Of a stretch of DNA of 64,000 nucleotides, positions 23,191-44,869 are shown in pieces; positions within the stretch are counted from its first letter, which is position 1; each line of letters opens with the position of its first letter. The DNA is from Williamsia maris (GTDB lineage: Bacteria > Actinomycetota > Actinomycetes > Mycobacteriales > Mycobacteriaceae), in NCBI RefSeq assembly GCF_024171815.1, contig NZ_JAMTCJ010000004.1, forward strand, positions 248,001-312,000. The letters run 5' to 3'. Both the position numbers and the translations under genes were made by a program. Under the pieces are notes generated by a model. It made no database searches, was not told where the DNA came from, and worked only from the letters and a program-made list of their open reading frames with translations.

Positions 23191-23229
23191 GTTGTTCGCC
23201 GTCCACGAGAACCTCCTTCGGGGACTGTA

Positions 23230-23239
23230 CTACTAGTAG
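23230..23239. promoter_or_regulatory. Perfect 10-bp palindrome in divergent promoter
   Basis: CTACTAGTAG lies between the divergent unknown gene (22324-23190) and the XRE-type gene (23277). It is a candidate operator for the XRE protein. Confidence 0.4.
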
Positions 23240-23276
23240 GGCAGACATTCGTGTATTCCGACGGCTTACTCACTGG

Positions 23277-23534: not shown

Positions 23535-23691
23535 CGGCGGTTCTCGCTGTCGGAGCTCGTCCGCATACATGCGATGACTAGCTAGGCACGAAGAGTTCAA
23601 CTCAGTCGACCTGAGAATGATCGGGCTCATGTGTGCTGGACGTTCGGTCGGTTGCCGCGCTACGGGTCGTCGTCACCGGGCCGGTGAACGG

Positions 23692-25616: not shown

Positions 25617-25625
25617 CGCACTACC

Positions 25626-27650: not shown

Positions 27651-28474
27651 CGCCAAACCTTGGCGTCGCTCGTGAGAGGTCGTTGCAGATTCGTATGCAG
27701 TTGGCGCCGCCACAGCATGTGGTAGACCGCCGTGGAGATGCTGTGGTGCGAGAGCCCAGTCGCGTCGTGGGCCGCGTCCAGTAGGTCGGCGACTGTGATG
27801 CCACCGGCGGAGGGAGTCGGTACGTGTGACCGGATGATGGTGGCGATCGCCGGTGGGGGAGCAGATCGCGGTCTGCTGTAGCCGGCCAGCAGACTCACAT
27901 TGTGTTGGACGACCGGCTCGACTGCGGTGAACTCGTGATAGCTCCAACCAAGGGCCTCGCAGACCCGCCGCGTTCGTAGGTGCTGCTCGGCTATCTGTTC
28001 CGAGATTAGAGCGGCGGGATGGACGTCGACTAGAACGACCGAACCGTTGTGGGTGCGCGCAAAGAAGTCGGGGGCGTGGCGGGCCGGGGTCAACCCTTTT
28101 GGCCACAGGAGCCAGAAGGGGTTTGAGCTCACACGCTGGACCTGCTGGCTGAAATCAAGAAGCATCAGCGCGATCGACTCGAAGTGCGATTCGAATCTGA
28201 CATGGGAGCCTGTGCCGGAGAACCAGTAGCTTCCTTCATGCGACCGCTTCCCCTTGTAGGCGGGGAACCGACGTATCGGAGGGAAGCTTTCGAACGCTAC
28301 GGCGCCCAGCTCGTCGGGGCGTATAGGACGTCTGACCGACCGTCGCGTATCGGGGTCCACGTACATCAGCTGGTCGTATGGTGCCGAACCGATCGGTAGT
28401 TTCACCGACGTCGGTTTCGTCACGACAACATTCGCGAGTAGGTCAGCACGCGTACGGCGCGTGTCGCGCCGCAT
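27647..28474 (-). CDS. TnsA-like heteromeric transposase endonuclease subunit
   Basis: A 275-residue protein with the TnsA N-terminal nuclease pattern: RFESHFESIALMLLDF (active-site Glu), SNPFWLLWP, RHAPDFFAR (active-site Asp) and VVLVDVHP. In TnsA the last motif is Q/E-x-K; here it reads D-V-H, so the Lys is replaced by His. TnsA cuts the 5' strands and makes transposition cut-and-paste. The start is uncertain: ATG 28474 is the best ATG, TTG at 28540 would add 22 residues. First gene of the operon. Confidence 0.78.
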   Translation of the reverse strand: MRRDTRRTRADLLANVVVTKPTSVKLPIGSAPYDQLMYVDPDTRRSVRRPIRPDELGAVAFESFPPIRRFPAYKGKRSHEGSYWFSGTGSHVRFESHFESIALMLLDFSQQVQRVSSNPFWLLWPKGLTPARHAPDFFARTHNGSVVLVDVHPAALISEQIAEQHLRTRRVCEALGWSYHEFTAVEPVVQHNVSLLAGYSRPRSAPPPAIATIIRSHVPTPSAGGITVADLLDAAHDATGLSHHSISTAVYHMLWRRQLHTNLQRPLTSDAKVWR

Positions 28475-28540
28475 CCGGGTCCGAGGCCTGCCGGTAACGG
28501 TGTCGAAAAGAGAATCTGTGGCACCTGAGGGTGCGCACAA

Positions 28541-28687
28541 CTATGCTTGCGCATAGCGATACCTCCACTTAGTGGGTAGGGGTCATCGTGGCTGGTGTCG
28601 TCGTTGGCGCGACGGCACCAGCTTTCACAGGTCATCACCACCTGCTTGCGCTTCAGGTCGAAACGTTACCGGCAACCACAGGTGGTG
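28541..28687. promoter_or_regulatory. tns operon leader with three inverted repeats
   Basis: Upstream of the tnsA-like gene are CTATGC-ttgc-GCATAG (28541-28556), a strong hairpin GCTGGTGTCGTCG with CGACGGCACCAGC (28592-28623, one T-G mismatch), and CACCACCTG (28636) paired with CAGGTGGTG (28679). No poly-T follows on the operon strand. They may be transposase binding sites at an element end, or operator/leader structures. The gap 28475-28906 has no gene. Confidence 0.5.
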
Positions 28688-28906
28688 TCTAGTGCTGATT
28701 GAATCCCCGAACGTCGCAATAGGTCGCCGATCGCAGCGTCGTCTTGCAATACGGGTCGTCGTCAACCCGGTGGGTACACTCAGAGTCGAAGTTGCACCGA
28801 AAGAATCACGGCATCACTGCGGATTCATTTCGCTCCGCTGCCGACGAGACTCCGACGGTGTGCCTTCCCTGTCAGTTCTGGCGTCAACTGGTTGGGAGGC
28901 ACTGTG

Positions 28907-29215
28907 ATGAGTGCTGTCAATGATCTGATCGAACTTTCTACCATCCCGTCGCAATCGACGGCTCGGTGTATGAACCCCGAGTGCCTCGAAATGTGCACGT
29001 TCGATCCGAACGTGGCCGGTCAGAAGCCGTTATTTTGTAGCGCAAAGTGCAGGGTGGCCTTTGGGGCCAAGCGCCGCAAGCTGGTGAGGCAACTCGAGGC
29101 TCTCGATGAGGTGCAGAGGACCACGTCGATGACGCAGAAGGAAGCGCGAAGGGTCGCCAAGGTTCAGTCCTACTTGCGGTGGTTGCTGGAGCGATACCCG
29201 TCGGATCGGGCGTGA
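28907..29215 (+). CDS. Small zinc-binding protein (FCS/CGNR-like)
   Basis: A 102-residue protein with a Cys-rich motif: CMNPECLEMC followed by FCSAKCRVAFGAKRRKL. The second half resembles the Cys-x-x-x-Cys plus basic helix of CGNR/FCS zinc fingers that bind nucleic acids. A basic helix rich in Lys/Arg follows. ATG at 28907 lies just downstream of GGAGGCACTG. It is divergent from the tns operon and upstream of the ImmA/PIN pair. Confidence 0.6.
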   Translation: MSAVNDLIELSTIPSQSTARCMNPECLEMCTFDPNVAGQKPLFCSAKCRVAFGAKRRKLVRQLEALDEVQRTTSMTQKEARRVAKVQSYLRWLLERYPSDRA

Positions 29216-29480
29216 GCGCAGCGCGTCTCGGCAGCACGATTTTTCTCGACGGGTCGACCGCCGAACCGACACATGTGGGCGGAATAACGAAGCTGAACGC
29301 TTCGGCCCGAATGGCACATGTGGGATTTGAGCGTGCCAGGACCCAGGAGCAGTCACCGCCGGCGAGCACCACGCACTCGATCCCGCCCACGTGAAGGTTC
29401 TCGAGGGCAAGGTCTTCGTCAAGCTGGGGGTCGACGAGGCGATCGCCGAAGAACACGTGAGGCAGGCGCAGACCGCGTGA
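29212..29480 (+). pseudogene. Possible frameshifted small gene before the ImmA-like gene
   Basis: Frame 1 from GTG 29212 (overlapping the previous stop) reads STIFLDGSTAEPTHVGG to about 29330. The frame that continues with coding character (HVKVLEGKVFVKLGVDEAIA) runs to TGA 29478-29480, overlapping the next GTG. One base shift near 29330 would join them into a protein of about 89 residues. It is either a frameshifted gene or two chance frames. Confidence 0.3.
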
Positions 29481-30643
29481 CAATTAGCGTCGTTCTGGAT
29501 GGCGACTCAATACCGATTGACCGGGACGTGTTCGTTGAGCTGTTGGAAAATTCGGTAGCCAGCGACTACGTCGCCTACCAAAACGCGCTGGCGAAGGGGT
29601 CAATCGAGTTCAAAACCCTCGTGAGGTTGGCACGCAAGGGTGAGATCCCATACTCATTGTTCTTCGGTCCTGTCGCTGTCGTGAGAGCTCAAATCAGGGC
29701 CAACACCGGAAAACTGCTGGAAGGGATCAGCAAGGCGACGTTCTCCGTGAACTCGCGTGGAACGGTCGAGTTGCATCGAATAGAGCTCATCGTCAAAGAT
29801 CTGCTTCGCAAGCAGGCGACGCTGAAGAAGTACGACGACACGCTAACTCACAACACGATTGTCGGGATGATCGGGAAGCCTGGGACGACGGTCGAGCAAG
29901 ACGCCCAAGCGCTGATGCGTGCCATCAAGTTGACCCGCAGCGACTTGCAGTCGGCACGGAATAAGGAGGCTGCGCTAAATCTCCTCATCGACCGACTGGA
30001 GTCTAGTCAAATCTTGGTCTCCCGCAGTGTTCGCAATTACATGCCTCAGCAGCTCAAGGCCAATTTCAGCGGCATGGCGATCAAAGACAAGAAGGTGCCG
30101 TATATCTTCCTTGCCAGCGAGCTCGGGCAGGAAGAGCTTTACGGGCGCCAGGTGTTCACCCTCACGCTCTTGACGGTCCTCATCGCGCGAAACATATTTG
30201 CCCCGGTCACCTACCAGACCCAGAGTGGGGGCGCGGCCCCTGGCCGCGAGTACGAGATCGTCGAGCAACTTCTCATGCCCGTCGAAGAGATCATCACGCT
30301 GCCCCTAGGGTCCCTAGACGACATAGTGGCGGCCGCGGACCATTTCAAGGTCACGCCGAGTGCCTTAGCCGTCCGCGCGATGCATCTCAAGCTTGTCGAT
30401 GTCGAGACGTCGAGCGCTTACCTCACTGAGCTCAACCGACGACACGCGAGCAGGCCGAAGTCCCAGGCGCGTAATCCGTTACCAGCCAAGGCGGTAAGAA
30501 AATACGCCGGACGGGAGCTGGTCAGCCGGATGTTCGACGCGCTCGACGCGGGAAGGCTCTCCGAGAGACAGTTTTGCAAATCTGTATGCCTAAACAAGCT
30601 GAAGCCTACGCAGCTCGCTGACTTAAGAGCGGTGGTGGGTTGA
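29477..30643 (+). CDS. ImmA/IrrE-fold protein lacking the HExxH motif
   Basis: A 388-residue protein. The central part follows the ImmA/IrrE pattern: GMAIKDKKVPYIFLASELG, then FTLTLLTVLIA where the family has FTLxHELaH, then EYEIVEQLLMPVEEI and FKVTPSALAVRAMHLKLVD. The zinc ligands His-Glu-His are absent, so it should not be a metalloprotease. GTG 29477 overlaps the previous stop. It overlaps the PIN gene by TTGA. ImmA/IrrE proteins commonly pair with DUF4411 PIN-like proteins, which supports a toxin-antitoxin-type pair. Confidence 0.72.
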   Translation: MTISVVLDGDSIPIDRDVFVELLENSVASDYVAYQNALAKGSIEFKTLVRLARKGEIPYSLFFGPVAVVRAQIRANTGKLLEGISKATFSVNSRGTVELHRIELIVKDLLRKQATLKKYDDTLTHNTIVGMIGKPGTTVEQDAQALMRAIKLTRSDLQSARNKEAALNLLIDRLESSQILVSRSVRNYMPQQLKANFSGMAIKDKKVPYIFLASELGQEELYGRQVFTLTLLTVLIARNIFAPVTYQTQSGGAAPGREYEIVEQLLMPVEEIITLPLGSLDDIVAAADHFKVTPSALAVRAMHLKLVDVETSSAYLTELNRRHASRPKSQARNPLPAKAVRKYAGRELVSRMFDALDAGRLSERQFCKSVCLNKLKPTQLADLRAVVG

Positions 30644-31077
30644 GCGACGACCAGCAGTACCTCATCGACAACAACGTGCTCATTAAGATGTCGACGAGGC
30701 AGCGTGCGAGCGAGTTTTTTGTTTCGAGCTGTCATGTGCCAAGTGAGGTCCTGTACGAAGCACGCGGGTTCCCCGACTACGAGGTGCTGTTGGAGCGTGA
30801 GTACCGAACGACGCCAGGTGTGCTGCGCCAACTCGTTAGCGTGATGGCAACAGTCTCCGTCGGCGATACATCGCTCGTTGATCTCTTCGCCAACCGCGGC
30901 AACGCCGACCCGATCATCGTCGCCTGCGCACTGGACGCGCAGCATCAGAACGAAGGATTGCTATTCGGGCCGAACTGGGTCGTCGTCTCCGACGACGATG
31001 CCGTGAGGACCAAGGCCGATTTATTTGGGATTTCGCTCAAAACCAGCGCAGAACTTAAGGCAATCATCGAAAAATGA
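30640..31077 (+). CDS. PIN-like nuclease, DUF4411 type
   Basis: A 145-residue protein with the PIN acidic residues spread as in DUF4411: YLIDNNVLIK (first Asp), Glu in VPSEVLYEA, ADPIIVACAL (third Asp) and VVSDDDAVR (last Asp). It probably cleaves RNA. The TTG start overlaps the ImmA-like stop by four bases, giving translational coupling. It would be the toxin of the pair, with the upstream protein as partner. It lies between the transposition genes and the recombinase. Confidence 0.75.
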   Translation: MSDDQQYLIDNNVLIKMSTRQRASEFFVSSCHVPSEVLYEARGFPDYEVLLEREYRTTPGVLRQLVSVMATVSVGDTSLVDLFANRGNADPIIVACALDAQHQNEGLLFGPNWVVVSDDDAVRTKADLFGISLKTSAELKAIIEK

Positions 31078-31142
31078 AGACTTGCAACCGTTTTGACAAA
31101 CACCTCCGTGTACCTGCTCTGCATTTCACTAGTGTCGACTGA

Positions 31143-32162
31143 CTAGGGCAGCTGTGCCTGCTCGGCGAATCGATACAAAGGGTTTGTCGCTGCCGCCGAG
31201 CGTGACTCGACACCGGCGGCCGCGACGTAACGCTGTGAAGTGATGATCGACTCGTGACCTAAGAGCTCCATCAGCGTGTACACATTGACATTAGCGTTCG
31301 CCAACTCGGTGGCGAACGTATGTCGGAGGCCGTGCACAAGGGCCCCGGCAACGGGCTGAGCATCGGGGCCAGCAAGCTTGAATGCTCGCGCAATCCGCGA
31401 TTGCAGAGTGCCGCGGCTGATTCGCTCATCGTCACGCCCAACAAACAGCGGCGCGTTCGCCGGCCACCAAGTCAACGGGTCAGTATCCGCATTTCGGCTG
31501 CGTCGCATAGGGTTACGACGTGCGCGTGTTTGGAGATATATCCGCAGCACGTCGAGGTAGCTCGCCTCGATGGGGATATTACGATGCTTGCCGCCTTTGC
31601 CACGGACGGAGATCACGCCTGAGCCGTCTCCATTCGTGCGGATGTCGCCAATGTCAGACGACCTGAGTTCCTCGGCACGTAGTCCCGCTAGTAGTCCGGT
31701 GAGCACGATTACGAGATCGCGCTCAGGCCAATCTGTCGCCCGGTGGACCGTAGGTTGAGTGATCGCGACCAAGAGCGCCTCGATGGCTCTAATGGGCAGA
31801 GCTTTTGGGAGCGTCTTAGGAAGCTTCGGCCGTCCGATGAGCGGCATCGGGTTCGACTCCAGAAGCTCTGAAGTGAACAGGAACGTGCACAGCACATTCC
31901 ACGTCGACCAGCAGCGGCGGATTGAGGTCGCAGCATGCTCACGCGCGAACGCTGAGAACGCGCCACCAACTGATGCCTTCGTGATGTCCTCCACGGACAA
32001 AGCTTCCGAACTTCCCGCGATCAGTACAGCGATAGCCGCGAAATCCTGCCGATAGGCCTTCAGTGAATGGGGGGAGAGCTTGCGCATTTGACGGTCATCC
32101 ATGAACTGCTCGAACCAAACGGGGAAGGCTTGCGACGGCTTGTCTAAGGCGACGTTGGACAT
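31143..32162 (-). CDS. Tyrosine recombinase (XerC/D-like integrase)
   Basis: A 339-residue recombinase. The N-terminal SAM-like DNA-binding domain (FEQFMDDRQMRKLSPHSLKA) is followed by the catalytic domain with Arg162 (GLRAEEL), Lys189 (RGKGGKHRNIP), His277 and Arg280 (HGLRHTFA), His303 (LLGH) and Tyr312 (QRYV). All six residues are present, so it should be active. About 20 extra residues precede PLFVG. It lacks the clear IntI-specific helix. Upstream lie a 22-bp palindrome, a dif-like site and the repeat array, which are its likely substrates. Confidence 0.87.
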   Translation of the reverse strand: MSNVALDKPSQAFPVWFEQFMDDRQMRKLSPHSLKAYRQDFAAIAVLIAGSSEALSVEDITKASVGGAFSAFAREHAATSIRRCWSTWNVLCTFLFTSELLESNPMPLIGRPKLPKTLPKALPIRAIEALLVAITQPTVHRATDWPERDLVIVLTGLLAGLRAEELRSSDIGDIRTNGDGSGVISVRGKGGKHRNIPIEASYLDVLRIYLQTRARRNPMRRSRNADTDPLTWWPANAPLFVGRDDERISRGTLQSRIARAFKLAGPDAQPVAGALVHGLRHTFATELANANVNVYTLMELLGHESIITSQRYVAAAGVESRSAAATNPLYRFAEQAQLP

Positions 32163-32185
32163 GAGTCCACCCTGGCCCAGATTTC

Positions 32186-32207
32186 ATGGATAATCAACAT
32201 TATCCAT
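32186..32207. promoter_or_regulatory. 22-bp palindrome upstream of the recombinase gene
   Basis: ATGGATAAT-caac-ATTATCCAT is a perfect dyad 23 bp upstream of the recombinase start. Its TGGATAA/TTATCCA arms match half-sites in the 67-bp repeats (TTATCCA). It may be a recombinase binding site, autoregulatory operator or recombination site. Confidence 0.6.
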
Positions 32208-32604
32208 AAAAAGGGCACGGGAGACGCTTGGAGCAGCGCAGATGGCGCGAGGGCAGAAACGCCGTGATACGTCACAGTGACGAATCACATGCTCTGAGCG
32301 GGATTGGTGTGACGGCCAGGGGTCGTAAAGCGCGAGCCGCAGGCCTCGTCGTCCGGCGAGATATCCTGCGGCTCACTTCCAAATCCATCGCAATGGATCG
32401 GCCTGCGAGCGACTGTACCCGCGCCGAGCAACTGCGACGACTCGGTCGTATGGTGCCGCCGGGGCGCTGTGGCAGCCAACTCTCATATTTTCGTGGAACC
32501 GTGCGGCCAGTCGGACAACTCTCAGGTCTTCTTGGATTACTGTCATCTTTTTCTGGATCGGACATCGGGATGCCGCCAAAAGGTCTCGGACACAGTGTGT
32601 CTCG
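32208..32604. other. Region between recombinase and dif-like site, no gene seen
   Basis: Frames on both strands here are low-confidence. The stretch is upstream of the recombinase and may be a leader or former attachment region. No ribosome binding site or known family was found. Confidence 0.4.
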
Positions 32605-32642
32605 CGAGCCGATAAGATACATTATGTCAAGCAGACGTTCAC
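32605..32642. other. dif-like/attI-like recombination site
   Basis: GCCGATAA (32608), central GATACA (32616) and TTATGTCAA (32622) reproduce the layout of XerCD dif sites: two inverted arms with a 6-bp centre. The sequence CAGACGTTCAC (32632-32642) that follows matches the right ends of the four 67-bp repeats (for example CAGTAGACGTTAGC in the repeat at 41205). It lies 42 bp after the stop of the first minus-strand gene of the array. Confidence 0.6.
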
Positions 32643-32683
32643 TTTTGCTGCGGGACAGCGTGTTTCACGTAAGTAGCATCGCT

Positions 32684-33793
32684 CTATCCCGACTCGACCA
32701 GCGTCCAGTTCGGCTCGCCGCGAGGGGGCGTCGCGAACACACTCCAGCCGGAATCGCCGCGCAGGGTTGCCGCGAGTGCATCGAGGAGGGCGGCCAGGCT
32801 GTCCCATCTTCGAGTCGAGTCATCGCTGTCGACATCGTCAAACTCGACAACCTGACCGGTCGCCGGCCCCGGCCTGGCGTCGTACACCAGCATCAATCCG
32901 TCACCCGCCGCGATAGGAATAAACGCGGGGATGAACCGGTACACCGGTTCGTTCCCGCGGCCATTGCCGTCCTCGGTGTCCGGTATCCAGTCGTGCGCGG
33001 CGAGCATCGTGGCCCTGGCATCGGCGGATTCATCGAGGCTCAGGAGGTCGAACTCGGGAAACAGGTTCTCGCTGTGGGCGTTTACGGTACGGAACCACGC
33101 CTTGAGATCGCTTGGCCAGGACACACCTGACAGTATCTCCGTCGCCTGGATCTGATCTTCTGTAGCGCCTGTGCTGAGCGTCGACGCAACGAGCGGCGCC
33201 CCGCGATCGCGCAACTGCTCGATCAGGTTTCGCCAACTAGTCGCAGTCGCGCGCGCGGCTTCTGTGCGGTCGCGGACCGGCGGCGGACGCAGCGAAACTT
33301 TCGGGGTGTCCACGAGCTCGTGTAGCCCGCGGGGCCCGTCTGTCGGCCAGATCTGCACCTTGACCGAACCGCCGTCGGGAACACCGTCTACTCCTCGCAC
33401 GCTGACGCGCACGACATGCCATCCGTTGAGAGACCTGTACAGGTCCTCTACTGGCCGGAGCTTATCCATGACGCTCTCATCGTCGTAGGTCTCAAACGGC
33501 AGCAATCGCGTCCCGGGTACGAAATGGGCGCCGATCTCCTCAATGACCTCCCAACCGTCAGGGACGAGCTCCGGCGAATCGCTCAAGTTTCCCCATTCGA
33601 AAGCCACCATGCCGACTGCTTCTTCGAGCACGATCACGACATCACCGGGGATTGAGCCATCCGGTGCGCCCGGAGCGCACGCCAGCAGCTTGCCGTGCTG
33701 ATACTCCTTCGACACACTGTCGCGCCACGCCGGTTCGGCACGCACTCGCACTTCGAAGGGGCTCAACAACTCCAGAAAGACGCTCGCGGTCAC
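32684..33793 (-). CDS. SMI1/KNR4 (SUKH) domain protein
   Basis: A 369-residue protein. The C-terminal 190 residues fit the SMI1/KNR4 superfamily: SGVSWPSDLKAWFRTVNAHS, FDLLSLDESA, PVYRFIPAFIPIAAGDG and a long acidic segment. SUKH proteins are widespread immunity proteins for polymorphic toxins. The N-terminal 180 residues form an unknown domain. The gene points toward the recombinase and ends 42 bp from the dif-like site; it is the first gene of the array. Confidence 0.72.
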   Translation of the reverse strand: MTASVFLELLSPFEVRVRAEPAWRDSVSKEYQHGKLLACAPGAPDGSIPGDVVIVLEEAVGMVAFEWGNLSDSPELVPDGWEVIEEIGAHFVPGTRLLPFETYDDESVMDKLRPVEDLYRSLNGWHVVRVSVRGVDGVPDGGSVKVQIWPTDGPRGLHELVDTPKVSLRPPPVRDRTEAARATATSWRNLIEQLRDRGAPLVASTLSTGATEDQIQATEILSGVSWPSDLKAWFRTVNAHSENLFPEFDLLSLDESADARATMLAAHDWIPDTEDGNGRGNEPVYRFIPAFIPIAAGDGLMLVYDARPGPATGQVVEFDDVDSDDSTRRWDSLAALLDALAATLRGDSGWSVFATPPRGEPNWTLVESG

Positions 33794-33997
33794 GACATCT
33801 CCGTCGAGGTCGCGGCGCGATACGGCCTTTGCCGCGCGAGATGACCCGGTTGTCGCTTCACACCCATTCGAACACCATAGTTAGCAATCCTTCACTCGCA
33901 CAGAGAACGCCTGATCAAAACGTCCACAGCGTGCGAGGTGCTCCATGTGGCGAGGAGATCCCGCTGCGGCGGATGAACTAGCGGGCATACTCGCTTT

Positions 33998-34594
33998 ATG
34001 CGTGATTCGGGAGACTTCGGCGCCAGGGCCTGCGTCTTGGGTCCGTTCTCAGAGCTGTTCGACGCCGTAGCCGCGGTGTCCCGGGAGATCACGTCTGCAG
34101 CACAGACGGCCACCGAACAGAGCTGCGAACGGTTGGTGGCGCACTCGCACTCCATCGTCGATGTCGCTACCGCTGAGGAGGCGCAGTACCTCGCCTCGGT
34201 GATCATGTGCTTCGATACGGACCCAGCCGACACCACTGGAGAACTCGTCGGCACCGTCCTGAACCTCGGCCCATTCGCTACTGTGCGCGCCGCGACTGAC
34301 GCTGCATCGGGAGAGGCCGAGATCGGTTGCTACCTCATGTTTGAACGTGAACAGCTCGCGTTCGCTGGGATGTCGCACAGCATAAGCAGCCAGCTAGATG
34401 TCAGTGGACGCGTCCAGTTCCACGTCACCGCCGCCGTGACCTACCGCAGCGCGGATCCCCCGCTACAACGGCCGACTGAACCCGCAACGCAACAAGCAGC
34501 CGACCACCCGCCGCCGCCGCAGCGCAAACTGAAGTTCCGCCCTGACGGCAACAAAGCCCGCCGAACTGCCCTTTACCGCCACAACAAGCAGTGA
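33998..34594 (+). CDS. Hypothetical protein with disordered C-terminus
   Basis: A 198-residue protein of unknown family. Residues 1-150 form an Ala-rich compact domain; the last 50 are Pro/Gln-rich and then basic (KLKFRPDGNKARR), probably disordered. It is the only plus-strand gene of the first array segment and ends 118 bp before the repeat at 34712. It has a stable start but no clear ribosome binding site. Confidence 0.55.
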   Translation: MRDSGDFGARACVLGPFSELFDAVAAVSREITSAAQTATEQSCERLVAHSHSIVDVATAEEAQYLASVIMCFDTDPADTTGELVGTVLNLGPFATVRAATDAASGEAEIGCYLMFEREQLAFAGMSHSISSQLDVSGRVQFHVTAAVTYRSADPPLQRPTEPATQQAADHPPPPQRKLKFRPDGNKARRTALYRHNKQ

Positions 34595-34711
34595 CCCGAG
34601 CGCTCCCCTCTCCCACGCACGCGGCCAGTGATCCGTGCCTCGTTCGTAGCGAACCCTGGGGATCGGTCAGCCACGACGGAGGCCGCCGGCGCCGTACGCC
34701 CTACCTCGGCT

Positions 34712-34778
34712 GACCTGCGGTGATGCATGTCGAGAATAAGCCCAAAAGTGATAAAGGACTTATCCAGTAAAGTTTCAC
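34712..34778. repeat. 67-bp cassette-type repeat, copy A
   Basis: Begins TGACCTGCGGTGATG, then the hairpin AATAAGCCC-aaaagtgataaa-GGACTTATCC and the right end GTTTCAC. The left arm carries one mismatch (C for T). The following 27 bp (TTGTCGGACAGCGTGTTT) are also conserved in copy B and after the dif-like site. The stop codon of the gene at 34775 lies within the right end. Confidence 0.75.
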
Positions 34779-35305
34779 TTATGTTGTCGGACAGCGTGTT
34801 TGAGAATATGGGCACTGGCTGGAGTGTCTGACAGTGAACCGATGACATGGTGTTGTCCCTTGTCGGTCCAGGTCGCGACTCCGTTGATGAGGCGCGGGCT
34901 CATGAATCCATCGCCCTCGCGGTACGGCCACGCAACACCGGCGTCGGCCACCTCGTTAGCCACTAGTTCAGCGTTCACTGCGGCTACCGTTTCTTCGTCG
35001 TCAACGACGCGTGCAATGGCGCCGCTGACGCCCCACCCGCTCGGTACCCGCCCCTTAGCGGTCACGCGGCTATATAACAGGACACCTCCGCTGGAGGCTT
35101 CGTACTCGGCGACCCAATCGATCCGCTCGATAGAGTTGCCGTACTGACACAAATGAAGGTCTCGGCCTATGCGTCCCAACGCGGAAAGCCACGCGTCAGG
35201 CAAGTCAGACGATTCCACCTCGACACCCCGCTCTTGTGTCCAGGTGGCCGTTAGCACCTGTTCATTGCGTGCTTGGCCGAACGAGTCCCAGCGACCTGCC
35301 ATCAT
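34775..35305 (-). CDS. Hypothetical protein, cassette gene
   Basis: A 176-residue protein of unknown function. It contains a motif repeated in neighbouring genes: GVAWPYREGDGFMSP and GVATWTDKGQHHVIGSL. Its last residues (LKHAVRQHK) and stop codon are encoded inside repeat A and its conserved flank. It overlaps the next gene (35302) by 4 nt. A relic with the same motif lies at 35884-36134. Confidence 0.65.
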   Translation of the reverse strand: MMAGRWDSFGQARNEQVLTATWTQERGVEVESSDLPDAWLSALGRIGRDLHLCQYGNSIERIDWVAEYEASSGGVLLYSRVTAKGRVPSGWGVSGAIARVVDDEETVAAVNAELVANEVADAGVAWPYREGDGFMSPRLINGVATWTDKGQHHVIGSLSDTPASAHILKHAVRQHK

Positions 35306-35814
35306 GGCCCGACGACCATTTCGCCGCCGAGTGAGTGAGCGTGTAGTTCGCCGATCGGCATCACAGGTTCATGCGATTGGTGGTCCACCCACATGGCACG
35401 GCCGTCGACGACGGTCGGATCCATCGGTGGCCGTCCCTCGAGTGCGGGCCACAGCACCCACTCGTGCGCGGCGAAGTCACCCTGCACCAGATCGGCCACC
35501 CAGTAGATCGTCGACGCGTCGCTGCGGCCGGCAACGTCGTCAGCGTTCTCGGTGTAGATGAGAGCTCGCCCATCGGTGTCGCGGATTTCGATCGCCGCGT
35601 GATCATCGTCGGAGATGAAGAGATTCCACACCGAAGTCGTTACGTCCCAGGCGTTAGCGCGTTCCCCGGTCTGCATGAACGGTACGTCACGACGCACTGT
35701 CGCGATCGCGATCGTCCATCGCTGCGGGGGCGCGCCCGGACCAGTGATTGACCCATCAGGCCAGTAGACCCAGTGCGCGGCGTCAGCGAAGTACTCGTTG
35801 ATCGACGGATGCAT
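35302..35814 (-). CDS. Hypothetical protein related to its neighbour
   Basis: A 170-residue protein with a similar layout to the 34775 product: WVYWPDGSITG at the start, WVLWPALEGRPPMDPTVVDG and AMWVDHQSHEP near the end. It probably belongs to the same unknown family through tandem duplication. It starts at 35814 and its stop overlaps the following start (4 nt), so the two are co-translated. No catalytic motif is evident. Confidence 0.6.
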   Translation of the reverse strand: MHPSINEYFADAAHWVYWPDGSITGPGAPPQRWTIAIATVRRDVPFMQTGERANAWDVTTSVWNLFISDDDHAAIEIRDTDGRALIYTENADDVAGRSDASTIYWVADLVQGDFAAHEWVLWPALEGRPPMDPTVVDGRAMWVDHQSHEPVMPIGELHAHSLGGEMVVGP

Positions 35815-35883
35815 GTTGCGACCCTATGGGCACACGACACAGCGCGGAAGCCTGCGACAGCGCACCTGCCTGCCACAAGACGG

Positions 35884-36134
35884 TTAGAAGCGGAAATCCG
35901 CTGGTCGGTGCTGTGGCGGGGAGGCTGCGGGTGCGGTCTCCGACCGTGTGCCAATGCAGTGGTGGCGGCCTGCGTCGGTCCAGGATGCGACGCCGTCGGT
36001 GGAGGTGGGGTCACGAATCCGGTGCCTGCGCGGTACGGCCAGGCGACACCGGAAGCGGCCACCTCTGCGGCGGCGGTGCGGCTGTTCTGCTCTATCCACG
36101 ACGGAGGTCCTGCGCAGATCCTGGAGAAGCGCAC
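35884..36134 (-). pseudogene. Frameshifted relic of the 34775-type gene
   Basis: One frame reads AAAEVAASGVAWPYRAGTGF and, after a shift, another reads DGVASWTDAGRHHCIGTRSE. These match AELVANEVADAGVAWPYREG and NGVATWTDKGQHHVIGSLSD in the intact gene at 34775. The relic is only about 80 codons long. It shows that this family is being duplicated and lost inside the array. Confidence 0.65.
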
Positions 36135-36182
36135 TTAGAAATTGTCTCGCGGGTGGGCCGACGTTTGGGCGACGATAGGTGC

Positions 36183-36509
36183 GTGAAGGGGGATGATGTG
36201 GACGACGATTGGCGGCCGACGGCTGCGGATGGCTCTATCGCGCTGGTAGTTGACGGTGAAGCATTTCGGGTCGCGGTCGCGGCAGACGGTGGTTGCCGCT
36301 ATACCTGGGTTAGCGGCCCCACCCCCGGGTATGGGTTTGAGGCCAGCGCACCGCGGGTCGCGTGGCGATCCAGTAGTGGGCTGCCGCCGGCACCGCTCCC
36401 ACTGCCGTTGCCGACGATCGCGCACCGCCGGAGAGCCATTCGAGACTTCCTTGCCGAAATCGATCCCAAAACGGGTTACCTGTCCAGCGTTGACTCAACG
36501 CCGTCATAG
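36183..36509 (+). CDS. Small hypothetical protein
   Basis: A 108-residue protein starting at GTG 36183. It is acidic at the start and has a Pro-rich middle (GLPPAPLPLPLP). No family is recognised. It lies on the plus strand and is followed after 8 nt by the gene at 36518, a likely two-gene unit. Confidence 0.45.
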   Translation: MKGDDVDDDWRPTAADGSIALVVDGEAFRVAVAADGGCRYTWVSGPTPGYGFEASAPRVAWRSSSGLPPAPLPLPLPTIAHRRRAIRDFLAEIDPKTGYLSSVDSTPS

Positions 36510-36517
36510 AGGTGTGT

Positions 36518-36847
36518 ATGACTGAGCTTTTTCATGTGAGCTCTGTGTTGAACCGAGAGTCGATCAGACGCCACGGTTTGGACTGGCGCCGGATGGGAGC
36601 CGCACCAGGAATCGCGGGCCCCCGTGTACCGCAGTTGGCGGGCTGTTTCCTTGCAATCGGCGAGTTTGAGCGTCGCTGGTTCACCGAGATGAACAACACC
36701 GGCGGCCCAGTCGACGTGTGGCGCGTCGACAACATCGCCACCACGCAACTGGCCACGTCGATGGAGGGGCATCAGTTTTACCCCGGCCCAATCGGGCCCA
36801 CGCACCTCACTCTCGTGGAGATGGATGTGCCGCCAGTGACCAGGTAG
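36518..36847 (+). CDS. Small hypothetical protein with LFHVSS motif
   Basis: A 109-residue protein with LFHVSSVLNRESIRRHGLDW, GCFLAIGEFERRWF and NNTGGPVDVWRVD. The H-x-S-S and 'N...SI...HGL' pattern resembles ADP-ribosyl-binding or KptA-like folds known from small actinobacterial proteins, but the assignment is weak. AGAGGTG precedes the ATG. Confidence 0.6.
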   Translation: MTELFHVSSVLNRESIRRHGLDWRRMGAAPGIAGPRVPQLAGCFLAIGEFERRWFTEMNNTGGPVDVWRVDNIATTQLATSMEGHQFYPGPIGPTHLTLVEMDVPPVTR

Positions 36848-36872
36848 CCGAGGGCGTGTGGGTGGTCGGTTA

Positions 36873-37706
36873 TCACGCGCGGCCGGGAGGTCGGACGGTC
36901 GGCTCGTCGAGGACTAGAGCGATGTACATGTCGTTGGTGATGTCTGCCGAGGGGGTATTGGCTGGTCCGCGGCGATAGACGATGATCCCGGCGGGGCCGA
37001 CGCTGCGCGCGGGGACGGCTTCGCTGACTTGGCGTGTGACGCCGGCGACGAGTCGACCCGCCTCGGTGGGCCGGTTGTGGATCTGAGCGGCGGGGTCGTC
37101 GAGGTCGACGGTGATCCGGTCTCCGCGGCCGGGAACGACGGGCCCGAAATAGGCTGGCGGTGCGGTGATGTGGACTGTTCGCCGGGCGACATCCTGTGCT
37201 GCCCTGTAATCGGTGATCTGTTGAGGTGCGGGTTCGACGAGTATGAGGTCGGTGAGCGTGACCACGGCGCCGCCGGGGTCAAATGGGCCGGCCGCGGTGA
37301 GTAGAGGTTCGGGGAACTTCTGGACCCGCTCGACCTGGTGCAGGGTCTCGCCGCTGGCCGGGTCCTGTGCTGTTCCCAGATAGATCTGGCGGACCCTGGC
37401 GATTGTTGCTGTGGCTTCGACGCCGGGTACACCGTCGGAGTGCCATGACAGCCAGATAACGATGGGCTGGTCGAGGGGGTTGCCGTCAGACGGGTCCCAC
37501 CGCGCGACTCCGCCATCAACTGTGACGAGGTCGCGGTCGCGGTCCCAACCGGTGACGCGCACCGGCGACCGATCAGCGCCGGTGGGGTGGGCATGGAGGG
37601 TGCCTGTGATGGTCTCGCCGACCGCAGGCGGGGTGCGGCAACATTCGTACTCGAACAATGCAATCCGAACCGTCAGCGACGGCAAAGGTGTAATCACCGT
37701 GTTCAC
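36873..37706 (-). CDS. Hypothetical protein, paralogue of 44862-45701
   Basis: A 277-residue protein of unknown function, about 70% identical by eye to the product at 44862-45701. It has shared blocks such as EYECCRTPPAVGETITGTL, GWDRDRDLVTVDG and DDPAAQIHNRP. No membrane segment or active site is seen. About 80 bp upstream of the start is also duplicated (37711 and 45705), so gene and promoter were copied together. Confidence 0.68.
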   Translation of the reverse strand: MNTVITPLPSLTVRIALFEYECCRTPPAVGETITGTLHAHPTGADRSPVRVTGWDRDRDLVTVDGGVARWDPSDGNPLDQPIVIWLSWHSDGVPGVEATATIARVRQIYLGTAQDPASGETLHQVERVQKFPEPLLTAAGPFDPGGAVVTLTDLILVEPAPQQITDYRAAQDVARRTVHITAPPAYFGPVVPGRGDRITVDLDDPAAQIHNRPTEAGRLVAGVTRQVSEAVPARSVGPAGIIVYRRGPANTPSADITNDMYIALVLDEPTVRPPGRA

Positions 37707-37710
37707 CGGG

Positions 37711-37792
37711 AGTTAGACGATCCGCAGCACGACGGCCGCGGGTCCCAGTGCACCTAATGGCGAATCGTACGTGTCACTGCCGGCTGGCGTCC
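37711..37792. repeat. Duplicated upstream segment, copy 1
   Basis: About 80 bp that match 45705-45788 with few changes (for example CCGCAGCACGACGGCCGCGG in both). It sits just upstream of the 36873 gene, as its partner does upstream of the 44862 gene. Confidence 0.7.
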
Positions 37793-37858
37793 ACAGTGAT
37801 CCATCCTCGCGAGTTCGATGCGTTGATGTTGCGCATAGGTCCAGCTCGTAGGTCCTTC

Positions 37859-37926
37859 GACCTGCGGTGATCCGGTGATGGGAATAAGTCCAAAAGCGAT
37901 AAGAGACTTATCCAGTAGAAGTTCAG
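37859..37926. repeat. 68-bp cassette-type repeat, copy B
   Basis: Begins GACCTGCGGTGATCCGGTG, hairpin GGAATAAGTCC-aaaagcgataag-AGACTTATCC, right end GTTCAG. It is followed by TTGTGCGACAGTGGATTT, which is similar to the flank of copy A. Confidence 0.75.
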
Positions 37927-37989
37927 TCATGTTGTGCGACAGTGGATTTGATCGCACTTACGATGCAAAGCAGCCCGAGCTTCTCCCCG

Positions 37990-38721
37990 TCAGGTGATAC
38001 GTAACAGGCCGGGCTCGGATCGCAGGTTGAGGTCTTTCAATAGGCCGATGACCGTGTACTCCCCCTGGGGAAAGGATTCGATGTCGGGTGTCGTGAGGTC
38101 TGCCCGGTAGAGCTCAACGGTTTCGCCGGGGTTCAGGTCTGGTAGGCCTCCGACTCCGCCGGAGTACACGACCCCGGGTGTCATGATTGGTTTGCCGTCT
38201 GCGTCGAGCAGCCAGGCAAGAACGGTCGGTGTGTCCTCGGCGACGTTGCGCCACATTGCGTTGCTGGTGTTGGTCAAGGTGGGCCGAATGTTCGGCCGGG
38301 TCCCGGCGGCGGTCGTCGTCTCCATCAAATCCAATCGCAGCTGGGCGCGTCGATAGCGTTTCGCAGGCACGGCGTGCAGGGGCCATCCATCCGTGGTGCT
38401 GACCATCCACCGGCCCTCCTCGGTGAGCGACGACGAGATGAGGACCCAAGCCCCCGGCTCGTCGAGGGACGGTGCGGCCACGGTCTCGCGCCGGTTGCGG
38501 TCGTTGTCGAGAGACTGGATCATCCGCCAACCGCTTTCGGGCAACACTCGCAGTGCGTCTCCAACGTGAGGCGGGAACTCAAAGTTGCGGTCAGCAGGGA
38601 AAAACGCCCGCAACGATGTGCCAGGATCCGCCAGTACGTCAGCCGGGACCTCGTCAAAGACATGGATTTGAAACGCCTGCGGTTGCACGTCGGAATTGGG
38701 CACGGGTCCAGACTTGCACAC
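37990..38721 (-). CDS. Hypothetical cassette protein
   Basis: A 243-residue protein of unknown function, starting at GTG 38721. Frames extending to 38841 would run through repeat C and are unlikely. It is mostly beta-strand-like in the second half (ELYRADLTTPDIESFPQGEY), possibly an immunoglobulin-like or COG1470-type domain. It is the only gene between repeats B and C, making a 0.9-kb unit, and ends 63 bp from repeat B. Confidence 0.55.
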   Translation of the reverse strand: MCKSGPVPNSDVQPQAFQIHVFDEVPADVLADPGTSLRAFFPADRNFEFPPHVGDALRVLPESGWRMIQSLDNDRNRRETVAAPSLDEPGAWVLISSSLTEEGRWMVSTTDGWPLHAVPAKRYRRAQLRLDLMETTTAAGTRPNIRPTLTNTSNAMWRNVAEDTPTVLAWLLDADGKPIMTPGVVYSGGVGGLPDLNPGETVELYRADLTTPDIESFPQGEYTVIGLLKDLNLRSEPGLLRIT

Positions 38722-38773
38722 CAATCCATCCCGATTACAGCGCTGCTGCAGCCTCTCGCGGTTGCAGATGCCT

Positions 38774-38841
38774 GACCTGCGGTGGTCCGGTCCAGAGAAG
38801 AAGTCCAAAAGTGATAAAGGACTTATCCAGTAGAAGTTCAC
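38774..38841. repeat. 68-bp cassette-type repeat, copy C
   Basis: Begins GACCTGCGGTGGTCCGGT, hairpin AAGTCC-aaaagtgataaa-GGACTTATCC (6-bp stem), right end GTTCAC. Together with copy B it bounds a 0.9-kb unit. Confidence 0.75.
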
Positions 38842-38940
38842 ATGCGTTGCCGCACTTCAATTTTGAGATCCCCGATGGGGTTGGTCATTCGAGCCGACGT
38901 CGAGTGGGCCGTGCTTGTTGTATTGGCGTCGTGCACGATT

Positions 38941-39414
38941 TTATGCCCGCTTGACGACATTTCCGAAGAGGTACGTCTCCTGCGGAAGCACGTTTCGCAC
39001 CTGTATGAACGCACTCGACTTGTCCACCAACTGCACCACGGCCTCAGCCGCGGAGTTTGCACACTCGGCGGCGTCCCGTCCGCGTACCTCGACGGTAATC
39101 TTGCCCTCCGGGAGCGCCCCGGACACCTTAACCTTCATTCGGGATGTCAGACCATCCGTACCGTCGCTGCTGCACAGGCCCGACAGCGCGGCCACCTGAC
39201 CGGAGAGTGAGTCATCGACAGCACCCTCGAGCTGAAACGGTTGGTCTGTTCCCAGGCGGCTGAAGGAGATGCGCGACGGGTCCGTCGGGATCTCGATAGC
39301 AACGATCGCCACCTCGCTAACAGCCACAGCCGGTGCGTCGTCGCCGTCGTCACTACATCCGGTCACAGCGCCGGCGAGGACCGCGAGCACGCCAACTGCA
39401 GAACAACAGCGCAT
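38941..39414 (-). CDS. Putative lipoprotein, cassette gene
   Basis: A 157-residue protein with a lipobox (LAVLAGAVTGC) after a short signal peptide, so lipid-anchored outside the membrane. A pair of Cys residues (LCSSDG and AAECANS) may form a disulfide. The C-terminal part resembles small actinobacterial lipoproteins of unknown role. It ends 100 bp from repeat C. Confidence 0.65.
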   Translation of the reverse strand: MRCCSAVGVLAVLAGAVTGCSDDGDDAPAVAVSEVAIVAIEIPTDPSRISFSRLGTDQPFQLEGAVDDSLSGQVAALSGLCSSDGTDGLTSRMKVKVSGALPEGKITVEVRGRDAAECANSAAEAVVQLVDKSSAFIQVRNVLPQETYLFGNVVKRA

Positions 39415-39635
39415 CCACTCATGCAGCGACCCTATGTCGGATTCGTCTGATCGCCGTGTAGATTCTGCACCCGGTCAAGTTCGGGCCGAGAACCCTACGA
39501 AGGCCGCGGAACAGTGGCGTCTTGCCCGGTCCGCCCGTAGGGTGCGAACAAATCCAGACCGTCTGGGAGGCTGTGGTGGCCCGGTCGGGTGCCAGGTCTA
39601 GCGTGTCAGTATGAACTCATCGCTGCGTCGAAAGA

Positions 39636-41069
39636 ATGCCTCCGTCTGATCAGCCGCGGTGGAGTATGACTCCAGCCGTTTCCGACCTCGTCGAACAGAT
39701 CGAGCAACAGGACGGTGCCCGCAGGCTGTCGCTGTCGGATGTCATCAATACGGTCCGTCTGCGAGGTCGCTCCGTCACCGCCGCCGATACTCAACTCGAG
39801 ATCGCGATCGCCGTCCACGATGTCGATGACGCTGGCTCATTTCCACCCAACTCGCTGCCGCGCGCCGTGGTGATGACGATCTACCCCTTCCCCGCCGGCC
39901 TTACAGGCGCCGAAGCCATTCGCGATGGTGCGAGCACCGCCATCGCCGACGCCGAAGGTGAAGCATGGCTCCGCGTCGTTCTGGGCGATGAACTCGCCGA
40001 CTACGCCTACCAGCTGCACACCAACATCCGGCCCCGAGGCAAACGCGCAGCGCTGCACACACACCAGAAGATTTTCGCGTCCTTCATCGCTCGACGCGAC
40101 CACCATTTGCTCGCGCCCGACAACTTCACCTGGCAGCGCCTCAGCCACACGAGCCAGCAGCTACCCCGCAAACTCGAACCATCCACGCACAACACCGAAT
40201 TGATCGAACTAGTGGCCGCGTCAGGCCCGTTCGCAGATGCGGAACTTGTACGCGATTTACGAACCAACCCCGACGGGACATGGCGAATACAACTGACCGG
40301 GGACGACCTCGACCACCTCACCCCCGTGGCCCGCGAAGCCCTCGAGCAGGCCTACCAACTCTTCCGGATCCGCGGCGCGATCCACACCAGCCTGCAACCT
40401 GAACGCCTCATCGCAACACCACACGAGGTGCAACTGCACTTTCGGTGGAAACGCAACCCCAACACCTTCGCCATTGCCACCCAACTGCCCCAAACGGAAG
40501 CATCGTTCTACTCCCCTGTCTCAAATCCCGCCGCCTGGATGTCCTACCGAGCCAGCGACTGGGACGAAGAACTCAGCACCGGCTGGGTGCGATGGGCACA
40601 ACGCAGCCGCATCAACGGCGTCATCCACCTTGGCCGCCGCCAGGAGCTCACGCGCAGCGGCGGCTACAGCTCCATCGGCAACCTCACCCCGCGAGCAGAC
40701 ACCAACGGAATTGTGTCCATTCCGCACGGCGAGAACCTCGCAATGGACACCACCGTGACCTACCGCGCCAGCAGACTCATTGCCTGGAACCACGAACTAG
40801 ACGTTCGACACAAGCCGTACGCGTTCGCAGCCCACGCCGTGATCGCCTGGACCGACACCCCGGGCGTCGCGTCCCTCGACATCCTCGAAGCACTTCCCAC
40901 CACCCCTGACTACAGCATTCGCCGAGCAGCGTTCCACGCCATCCACGACGCCGCCGACGCCGGCGCCCACCTGATCACCACCACACTCACCACACCTGTC
41001 CTCGACGAACTCGGGTTGGTGACCGAAACAACGGGGCGCCGCGTGCTCGACGTTCTGACCATGCCGTAA
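39636..41069 (+). CDS. Hypothetical protein
   Basis: A 477-residue protein of unknown family on the plus strand. It has no signal peptide or membrane segment. Conspicuous parts are SDVINTVRLRGRS, a Trp-rich middle (GTWRIQL, NFTWQRL) and GYSSIGNLTPRAD. It ends 136 bp before repeat D. No known enzymatic motif is visible. It might be a cargo gene of the array. Confidence 0.6.
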   Translation: MPPSDQPRWSMTPAVSDLVEQIEQQDGARRLSLSDVINTVRLRGRSVTAADTQLEIAIAVHDVDDAGSFPPNSLPRAVVMTIYPFPAGLTGAEAIRDGASTAIADAEGEAWLRVVLGDELADYAYQLHTNIRPRGKRAALHTHQKIFASFIARRDHHLLAPDNFTWQRLSHTSQQLPRKLEPSTHNTELIELVAASGPFADAELVRDLRTNPDGTWRIQLTGDDLDHLTPVAREALEQAYQLFRIRGAIHTSLQPERLIATPHEVQLHFRWKRNPNTFAIATQLPQTEASFYSPVSNPAAWMSYRASDWDEELSTGWVRWAQRSRINGVIHLGRRQELTRSGGYSSIGNLTPRADTNGIVSIPHGENLAMDTTVTYRASRLIAWNHELDVRHKPYAFAAHAVIAWTDTPGVASLDILEALPTTPDYSIRRAAFHAIHDAADAGAHLITTTLTTPVLDELGLVTETTGRRVLDVLTMP

Positions 41070-41204
41070 TTCGCCACCACCCAAATCGCAGCATTGGGCG
41101 GGCCGCGGACCTCACGCGGCGGCGCGGCACGCCACTCGTCTCATGACGGGGTAGTGGCGGCAACGGCAGAACAGACCCGGCGAAAACGCACCCAACAGCT
41201 TCCT

Positions 41205-41272
41205 GACCACCTGCGATGCGCCGTCAAGAATAAGTCCAAAAGTGATAAAGGACTTATCCAGTAGACGTTAGC
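41205..41272. repeat. 68-bp cassette-type repeat, copy D
   Basis: Left part diverged (GACCACCTGCGATGCG), hairpin AATAAGTCC-aaaagtgataaa-GGACTTATCC intact, right end GTTAGC. It is the last copy found; the gene that ends beside it (41317) is the last candidate cassette gene. Confidence 0.72.
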
Positions 41273-41316
41273 TTGCTCGCAATCGCGCTCCACCAGTCCA
41301 GTGGGTGCTCGTGGCC

Positions 41317-41916
41317 TCACGTCTGGGTCGGGAATCCGTGTAGCAGGACCATCACCACTGCTGCGTCTTGCGATTCCTCGGCGGCGGCGACGGAGCGGTA
41401 CCGCTCAACGACCTCGAGCAACTCGACACCCAGGGCGTCGGTCTGAGAAGGGGTCAAGCGTAGAACGTTGTCGGCGCTGAACGTCGCGTCGGTCCAATCA
41501 GGTCCCCAGGATGTAGCGGTGCGGCCGTATTCCATCAAGCGTGACCATTGGTGTTCGAGCATTACGGCTTTCGCCGCCTCCGCCGCGGTGGCTCCGTGGG
41601 GCGAGTCGCTGAAGTCGGTTGGAAACCATGAAATTCCGTGCGCTGCACGCCACCACCGCTGCCGACCGTCCCCGCTCGCGTTGTCGGTCTCCTCGACAAA
41701 CCCACTCGCGGCCAGTTGATTAACGTGGTAGCTGACCGACGCTGGTGATTCCTCGACAATTTCTCCGAGTTGAGTTGCCGTCAGCGAGTCGTGAGCCTTG
41801 AGTGCATGGAGCAAGCGCAGCCGCGTGGGGTGTGACAGAGCTTTGAGCTCGGGCAAGGTCGACACCCGTTTGATGTCATCACGTGTCTTTCGATTCTCGG
41901 TCACGGACGTCACCAT
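41317..41916 (-). CDS. ArsR-type (HTH_20) regulator
   Basis: A 199-residue regulator with a winged helix-turn-helix: TLPELKALSHPTRLRLLHAL, LTATQLGEIVEESPASVSYH and VNQLAASGFVEETD. The C-terminal part is a helical effector-like region. The start at 41916 is the best ATG; longer forms lack domain support. Its 3' end lies 45 bp from repeat D. Candidate operators lie upstream at 42019-42053. Confidence 0.78.
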   Translation of the reverse strand: MVTSVTENRKTRDDIKRVSTLPELKALSHPTRLRLLHALKAHDSLTATQLGEIVEESPASVSYHVNQLAASGFVEETDNASGDGRQRWWRAAHGISWFPTDFSDSPHGATAAEAAKAVMLEHQWSRLMEYGRTATSWGPDWTDATFSADNVLRLTPSQTDALGVELLEVVERYRSVAAAEESQDAAVVMVLLHGFPTQT

Positions 41917-42018
41917 ATATCCGCAACGAATCTTGCGCAATAATTCCTTCGGGAGTCTTTTTGCTCTCAGATCTGATGCACCAAACACGTCCATGGGTGG
42001 TTGCGCCGGCTGATCGAG

Positions 42019-44431: not shown

Positions 44432-44869
44432 TCAGCGCCATGGCATTCTGCGATTCCACCAGGGTTGAGTCGCGATGGAGCTCACCTCGGTGGTCACCTC
44501 GCGGTACCGCTCGTCGACGCGCTCGACCTCGACGGCGGGTCGGTGCGCCCGACGACCTCCGTTGCTGATGAGTCGCCCTAGTCTGTCGCGGGCGTCGCTG
44601 AGCATCTCGCCGTCGCATGCCACACATCCTGTGGGGCCTTCTCGGAGTCGTAATGGTGTGCACGGCAAGTCCGGGTCGCCCCGAGCGACTCTGCGCTCTG
44701 TTCGTTCGACGTGCGCGCGCCACTCCGCGAGGAGCGCTAGGGCGCCGCCGTCCTGTCGCCGTCGGCGGGGCCGATGCGAATTCACGCCGACAAGCAGGTG
44801 CCCTTTTGTCGTCCATGGCGAATGCCCGCTGCGTGTCAACGCTCGCCTCACCCGGTCCTGCTCAGTCAT
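44432..44869 (-). CDS. Hypothetical protein, overlapping the 44862 gene
   Basis: A 145-residue basic, Arg-rich protein with a CVACDG motif. Its ATG lies within the end of the upstream paralogue gene (8-nt overlap), suggesting co-translation. No family recognised. Coding is supported mainly by this overlap. Confidence 0.45.
   Translation of the reverse strand: MTEQDRVRRALTRSGHSPWTTKGHLLVGVNSHRPRRRRQDGGALALLAEWRAHVERTERRVARGDPDLPCTPLRLREGPTGCVACDGEMLSDARDRLGRLISNGGRRAHRPAVEVERVDERYREVTTEVSSIATQPWWNRRMPWR

Follow-up and report, generated by a model that had tools for sequence, protein, structure and literature searches.

We analyzed a window of 64,000 nucleotides from Williamsia maris (contig NZ_JAMTCJ010000004.1, positions 248,001 to 312,000 of the forward strand), which belongs to a genome of 4.93 Mb in 5 contigs (G000). 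Its segment from 31143 to 41263 contains a gene for an Xer-like tyrosine recombinase, the dif site, at which replicated chromosomes are separated, and, on the other side of dif, four gene groups that each end in a copy of a repeated site with a 37-bp core. We consider it probable that this is a cassette array anchored at dif, integron-like in its working and served by the neighbouring recombinase. The features concerned are as follows.

31143–32162, minus strand: gene for a 339-aa Xer-like tyrosine recombinase, located to the CCGATAA side of dif; matches PF00589, below the XerC, XerD and IntI cut-offs
32605–32632, plus strand: chromosomal dif, putative platform (attI equivalent); 22/28 positions shared with the Frankia dif; the genome's only match to the dif pattern
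32633–34769, no strand: cassette 1, left border uncertain by ~10 bp; genes 32684–33793 (minus) and 33998–34594 (plus); ends with core A
34733–34769, plus strand: cassette site core A
34770–37917, no strand: cassette 2; genes 34775–35305 (minus), 35302–35814 (minus), 36183–36509 (plus), 36593–36847 (plus) and 36873–37658 (minus); ends with core B
37881–37917, plus strand: cassette site core B
37918–38832, no strand: cassette 3; gene 37990–38703 (minus); ends with core C
38796–38832, plus strand: cassette site core C
38833–41263, no strand: cassette 4; genes 38941–39390 (minus) and 39666–41069 (plus); ends with core D
41227–41263, plus strand: cassette site core D
41264–41994, minus strand: flank after the array, which follows dif in congener G003; ArsR-like gene 41317–41994; BLAST homology over 41264–41951, 96% over 688 bp

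The four repeats noticed in a preliminary description of the window, made from its letters alone, form one family with starts at 34702, 37850, 38765 and 41196. A whole-genome search with repeat A (E 0.001) matched only these four copies (E 1.7e-52 to 3.5e-12), and the genome-wide scatter that the description had named as speaking against its own reading was not seen, the sites being clustered at dif. The stop codon that it placed within copy A, that of gene 34775–35305, is indeed there. The hairpin arms it reported are also present, but visual inspection shows G-T pairs or mismatches in those of A–C, and the 89-nt copies, folded as single-strand DNA, gave z values of −1.5 to −2.2 for the minus strand and −0.9 to −2.3 for the plus strand, so that the hairpins must be called modest. 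The proposed common right end, (A/C)GTTCAC, holds loosely: GTTTCAC, GTTCAG, GTTCAC and GTTAGC follow A–D, and GTTCAC follows dif. Because the sequence after dif resembles that after the repeats, a hidden Markov model of the four repeats also matches 32611–32664 (E 0.004). Reversed gene polarity stands for the called genes that come first after dif and after each of the four repeats, 5/5 of which are on the minus strand, but 4/10 array genes are on the plus strand. The minus-strand gene of cassette 1 encodes a SUKH-family protein and its plus-strand gene has no recognised function; among the nine region proteins scanned besides the recombinase, only the SUKH-family and ArsR-like proteins were recognised. 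Paralogous genes, 79–85% identical in DNA, lie in cassette 2 (36873–37658) and beyond the array (44862–45695).

The site at 32605, previously described as dif-like, is real, and its identity is revised: judged from its sequence, its rarity and its position in relatives, 32605–32632 is the chromosome's own dif, and it would be the platform of the array. It agrees at 22/28 positions with the dif suggested for Frankia alni in PMC3025954. The pattern CCGATAA-N6-TTATGTCA, with one mismatch allowed, is present in 21/21 genomes tested, recombinase-less ones included; a match containing CATTATGT occurs exactly once in 20/21 and is missing from G002, and 9/21 have two matches or further matches of other forms. 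In 11/11 mycobacterial chromosomes dif lies 44.0–54.2% of the way round from dnaA, a comparison that covered 11 of 12 chromosomes (G501, a partial contig, was dropped) and mycobacteria only. Cumulative GC skew peaks at 28–40 kb of the window, which agrees with dif and is weak alone. A second dif-like 28-mer, with 21/28 positions shared with the Frankia dif, lies 28 kb to the left at 4745–4772, and congener G002 has two sites of TTTATA type that resemble it.

Related sites occur in Mycobacterium. Genome G316 (locus L058) has three copies of the same length as A–D and with letters partly alike (GGAATAcGgCgg..., end TTAcCAGTA), which adjoin genes resembling MazF by eye. At E 1e-3 a sequence model of the mycobacterial 37-bp site, R1, found one or more sites in 138/248 Mycobacterium genomes and at least three in 38/248 (hand count); in the wider family at E 1e-4 it found sites in 40/401 genomes and 8/31 genera. 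R1 found no site in G000 at E 0.01, which indicates that the site types diverged between genera; by their sequences, the sites have diverged as did the recombinase, while dif has not. G498 has the longest array seen, in which 16 sites share a single orientation across 47 kb. We counted anchoring in 11 of 23 site-bearing genomes, namely those in which dif was searched and which had been preselected for having sites: 47/55 sites lie at most 60 kb away on the TTATGTCA side of dif and in dif orientation, where 0.5–3.4% per site would be expected. The attC-like folding postulated for the window sites is not a family trait, as the 88 mycobacterial sites analyzed do not preserve the hairpin (mean z −0.37 against −0.11 for the control; below −2 in 6/88 against 5/88), and we rejected it on that ground.

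Whether units are exchanged at these sites can be read from their flanks, which we compared by blastn (E 1e-8, at least 120 bp) for 88 of 103 sites; the rest were dropped for lying on the other strand, for a core match below 26/37 or for being too near the end of a locus. Only the left unit is common to 65 site pairs, only the right to 72 and both to 4, and in example pairs one flank is 93–96% identical and the other has no match, with the switch at or near the core. Furthermore, a unit that follows dif in one genome follows an internal core in another, as in G513/G416 (94% over 326 bp) and G316/G527 (86% over 102 bp). Thus, as in integrons, cassettes are exchanged at repeated sites within an array on one side of a platform.

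The platform itself is found empty in congener G003, where three bases separate dif (CCGATAAGATACATTATGTCAA, identical to that of the window) from a downstream GACGTTAGCCTGCTCGCAATCGCG. This last sequence is the one that follows core D in the window, and BLAST homology begins at 41264, the first base past core D. The G003 junction therefore shows that the window's four units occupy the space between dif and the flank of a platform that is otherwise empty, and together with the 65/72/4 site pairs it bears out the variation between repeats that the preliminary description expected of related genomes. No recombinase was found within 40 kb in G003 (best tblastn E 1.5), and nine loci of seven congeners, located at dif or, for G002, at two other dif-like sites, contain neither site type at E 0.05.

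The same junctions place the exchange approximately. The window dif junction reads TTATGTCAA-GCA-GACGTTCAC, the core D junction TTATCCAGTA-GACGTTAGC and the empty G003 junction TTATGTCAA-CTT-GACGTTAGC. Exchange within the six central bases would put TTATGTCAA at core D, which instead keeps TTATCCAGTA; the exchange therefore lies 3′ of the right arm of dif, within ~10 bp, and the canonical XerCD exchange in the dif centre is disfavored. If this placement is correct, the core that belongs to a unit is the one at its dif-distal end. In loci L006 and L007 (around 7949–8035) a 12.7-kb stretch of 99.5% identity breaks off at a sharp border ~45 bp left of dif; around dif they are ~40–66% identical per 50-bp block, and then ~80% over a 3-kb module. 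The border recurs, without explanation, in other pairs and was dropped as a crossover. The blocks common to L011 and L018 did not map to sites and were dropped as exchange units.

The complete tyrosine recombinase gene reported earlier was confirmed, its product matching Phage_integrase PF00589 at E 1.6e-22 in a profile search. Residues R162, K189, H277, R280, H303 and Y312, which we take to be the catalytic residues of tyrosine recombinases, are invariant in 17/17 aligned sequences, and the protein passes the residue test of the superfamily (R, K, HxxR, H, Y). XerC and XerD are its closest equivalog models, though with scores far below their cut-offs (141.5 bits against 335.15 and 128.2 against 329.6, respectively), and XerD 1a0p is its best relative of solved structure. 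The integron integrase model TIGR02249 gave 36.6 bits against a cut-off of 265 and matched residues 247–314 only, which, together with unit exchange and the empty platform, supports the earlier suggestion of an IntI-independent cassette system beside an Xer-like recombinase. A structure model was set aside for its mean predicted local distance difference test score (pLDDT) of 66, with residues 269–339 below 50.

The recombinase family is patchy in occurrence, its members lying next to dif as well as on plasmids. Scanning genome contigs yielded 20 loci with up to 65% identity, of which 18 belong to organisms named Mycobacterium or Mycolicibacterium; relatives occur in 49/401 genomes of the family at E 1e-50, in 39/248 Mycobacterium genomes at E 1e-80 and in 60 plasmid records at E 1e-30. 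Within the window's genus 1/8 genomes, G000, has the recombinase at E 1e-40, and this same single genome carries both recombinase and array. The DNA to the left (22000–31100) has no match in seven congeners at E 1e-10. No relative was found among candidates from viral contigs; four phage records matched weakly, covering 55% of the query. At L016 (29–90) and G577:C58:39–79 a core site lies directly upstream of a recombinase relative, as though the recombinase were a cassette gene, and a Mycobacterium gordonae plasmid (G266:C2) has sites at 98300 and 116707 in one orientation with a relative at 112765 between them, so that this plasmid is a possible carrier of units.

Besides the window, 16 loci have recombinase relatives, 53–65% identical, near dif. 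The distance from recombinase start to dif is 446–2457 bp in 16 of the 17 loci (window included) that have a near full-length gene and dif both in the sequence examined, and 12.5 kb in G513. The gene sits on the opposite side of dif from the arrays, and on that side remnants are also found in G498 (109 aa, 73% identity, 33 kb away) and G528 (142 aa, 48% identity, less than 1.2 kb from dif).

Between the recombinase and dif lie three further elements.

32186–32207, no strand: palindrome ATGGATAATCAACATTATCCAT, just 5′ of the recombinase; its GGATAA-N6-TTATCC layout resembles dif
32270–32282, no strand: palindrome CGTCACAGTGACG; inspection by eye also places it ahead of homologous recombinases and close to the empty G003 dif
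32477–32557, no strand: three 21-bp direct repeats (repeat family D10)

A palindrome similar to the first occurs near the recombinase in 13/20 homologous loci (L005–L024, hand count), and from its layout it is a possible recombinase-binding or autoregulatory site. The second is a candidate regulator site, and repeats like the 21-bp ones are seen by eye in homologous loci. On the other side, two plus-strand genes adjoin the recombinase (29477–31077), presumably a metalloprotease-type and PIN-type pair by eye.

The content of the arrays was assessed in 67 units with bounding sites less than 6 kb apart, which have a median length of 1225 bp and most commonly two genes (27/67). Of 63 genes that come first after a site, 46 lie on the minus strand and so read toward dif (p 0.0003). 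All cassette genes together run 114 toward and 61 away from dif, compared with 93 and 107 for control genes located over 6 kb away from any site. For cargo we scanned 110 of 173 cassette proteins, chosen by eye by leaving out mostly short frames, a few longer ones and the last 23, and including repeat members of one cassette family from different genomes. PemK/MazF (16), PIN (5) and CcdB (4) were recognised, as were a few ribbon-helix-helix antitoxin families, hydrolases and transposition genes. Defence models comprised Lamassu LmuA, LmuB and LmuC with one protein each, DrmD with two, and mads-type models; the first gene of the G498 array (L154 9759–11861) is an LmuA match at E 1.2e-142.

We propose that the chromosomal dif would act as a reserved insertion platform for units of ~1–3 kb, often one operon read toward dif with the 37-bp core at the far end. 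Site-specific recombination, possibly by way of a circular intermediate, would put a unit immediately 3′ of the right arm of dif, which would therefore stay intact; the newest unit would lie next to dif, and a core × core version of the same exchange would remove or reshuffle units, whose genes would be expressed and may benefit the host. The Xer-like recombinase across dif most likely catalyses the exchange and would bind the arms. It is the best candidate because it stands beside dif in its clade, because sites and recombinase diverge between genera while dif is constant, because the TTATCC arm is common to the window cores and to the palindrome at its start, and because the exchange lies outside the dif centre. 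As the presence of sites is neutral to that of the recombinase, we infer the enzyme from these indications.

Several results weigh against this interpretation. The recombinase gene starts 446–2457 bp from dif in 16/17 loci that have both, yet several relatives have no nearby dif and many arrays no gene. The pattern is limited to one clade: within the stretch examined, dif was not found upstream of L012, L013 and L015 (60–63% identical), nor at L016, L017 and L019 (53–57% identical; on the opposite strand L017 has a single weak match) or the plasmid loci L055–L057. The recombinase fragment of G604 is not near its dif, and G570, G599 and G594 have arrays at dif with no recombinase match at E 1e-15. 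Sites are present in 22/39 Mycobacterium genomes with the recombinase and 116/209 without (p = 1; hand-counted). The linkage of repeats to recombinase that had been expected is thus only partial, because mycobacterial sites are as common without the gene; the constant partner of the sites is dif. Even so, 8/55 sites lie away from dif (three in G316 at ~290 kb, three in G599, one each in G528 and G604), and 61/175 cassette genes point away from it. The core identity signal agrees with an exchange 3′ of the right arm but is slight (0.82–0.87 for left-sharing pairs, 0.77–0.83 for right-sharing, 0.79 for unrelated), and as the dif-side and core-side spacers differ by 2–3 nt the exchange point is located only to ~10 bp. 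Arrays may outlive a lost recombinase, and loss after use would explain sites in recombinase-less genomes. Such loss has been proposed for attC clusters without an integrase (PMC8618304).

The equal frequency of sites with and without the recombinase could also mean that host XerC/XerD move the units at dif, as with dif modules and integrative mobile elements exploiting Xer (IMEX), and that the neighbouring gene is a mere resident, for example a plasmid-derived resolvase. This is a lesser but appreciable possibility, and the nature of the platform speaks for it. To our knowledge XerCD is present in all hosts; in G000 a single candidate, 35% identical, was seen. Against host XerCD, the exchange lies outside the central 6 bp of dif, the cores vary between genera while dif does not, and the cores are not dif mimics: none of A–D ranks in the top six of the window's 28-mer matches to dif, and the next best after dif itself is 4745, outside the array. 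Another recombinase, acting in trans or from next to dif, might instead build the arrays, which we regard as improbable. It could be encoded in a module whose recombinase starts 270–298 bp right of dif in L006, L007, L022, G427, G599 and G416, a placement that also counts against our proposal, or on plasmids, given the 60 plasmid records with relatives and the G266 plasmid with two sites. By eye the module (L006 4373–7717) has a 367 aa recombinase-like frame, a helix-turn-helix-like frame and a second long frame, and it seems to be another dif-targeting element. However, its recombinase had no match at E 1e-15 in 10.7–31 kb right of dif at loci with sites present, namely the window, G598, G430, G570, G528, G604, G542, G501, G524 and G498.

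That the repeats are terminators or resemble miniature inverted-repeat transposable elements (MITEs), at a terminus that merely tolerates insertions, would suit their closeness to gene 3′ ends but is very unlikely: we rejected it because the genome has only four copies and these are clustered at dif, in common orientation, and units are exchanged at the sites and the empty platform has its border at the end of core D. Least probable of all is a classical integron with diverged IntI and attC sites. It shares the logic of integrase gene, platform, repeated sites and toxin-antitoxin cargo, and the window copies do have a weak hairpin; however, the IntI profile (36.6 bits against 265, residues 247–314 only) and family-wide folding, in which relatives' sites do no better than control DNA, both fail, for which we rejected it, and in addition the platform is dif and most first genes face it.

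Integrons are the standard case of bacteria gathering small gene packages in a reserved array, and they too carry toxin-antitoxin cargo. As described in PMC8618304, they resemble the arrays reported here in having a reserved platform, an array of small units with sites in one orientation, a nearby tyrosine recombinase and integrase-less arrays. In contrast, the recombinase here is not IntI, the sites lack family-wide folding, dif serves as the platform, the majority of first genes read toward it and the core is at the 5′ side of those genes. Acinetobacter dif (pdif) modules are similar in that Xer-related sites bound exchangeable adaptive-gene modules, but they have dif-like sites as their borders and are attributed to XerCD (PMC6449649, PMC12907356), whereas here the core is not a dif mimic, the array is on one side of a single chromosomal dif and exchange occurs outside the dif centre. 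IMEX and LME-1/XerL (PMC9765430) likewise involve Xer-type insertion at dif; IMEX, however, carry a dif mimic and use host Xer, whereas here there are serial units, another core site and an intact dif, and the junctions place exchange 3′ of the right arm instead of within the central region. The window recombinase resembles the Xer-group simple tyrosine recombinases, as presented in PMC8138268, in size and in alignment to XerD 1a0p, and differs in scoring below the XerC/XerD cut-offs and in its patchy presence beside dif and on plasmids. No description of cassette arrays at dif in Actinobacteria was found among the listed open-access matches, a scope outside which most subscription journals and all preprints fall.

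On balance we lean toward the view that Actinobacteria evolved their own integron equivalent, with an Xer-derived integrase, dif as the platform, a non-folding, double-stranded 37-bp site, and toxin-antitoxin and defence arrays at the terminus of many Mycobacterium and of the window species. If true, this would be a second system, with another recombinase, another site type and a dif platform, and the arrangement would have had more than one origin. Chromosome dimer resolution and gene capture would be connected, and the natural cassette sites of the system would be usable as actinobacterial genetic tools. Mycobacteria would thereby gain a concrete route to shuffle toxin-antitoxin and anti-phage genes.

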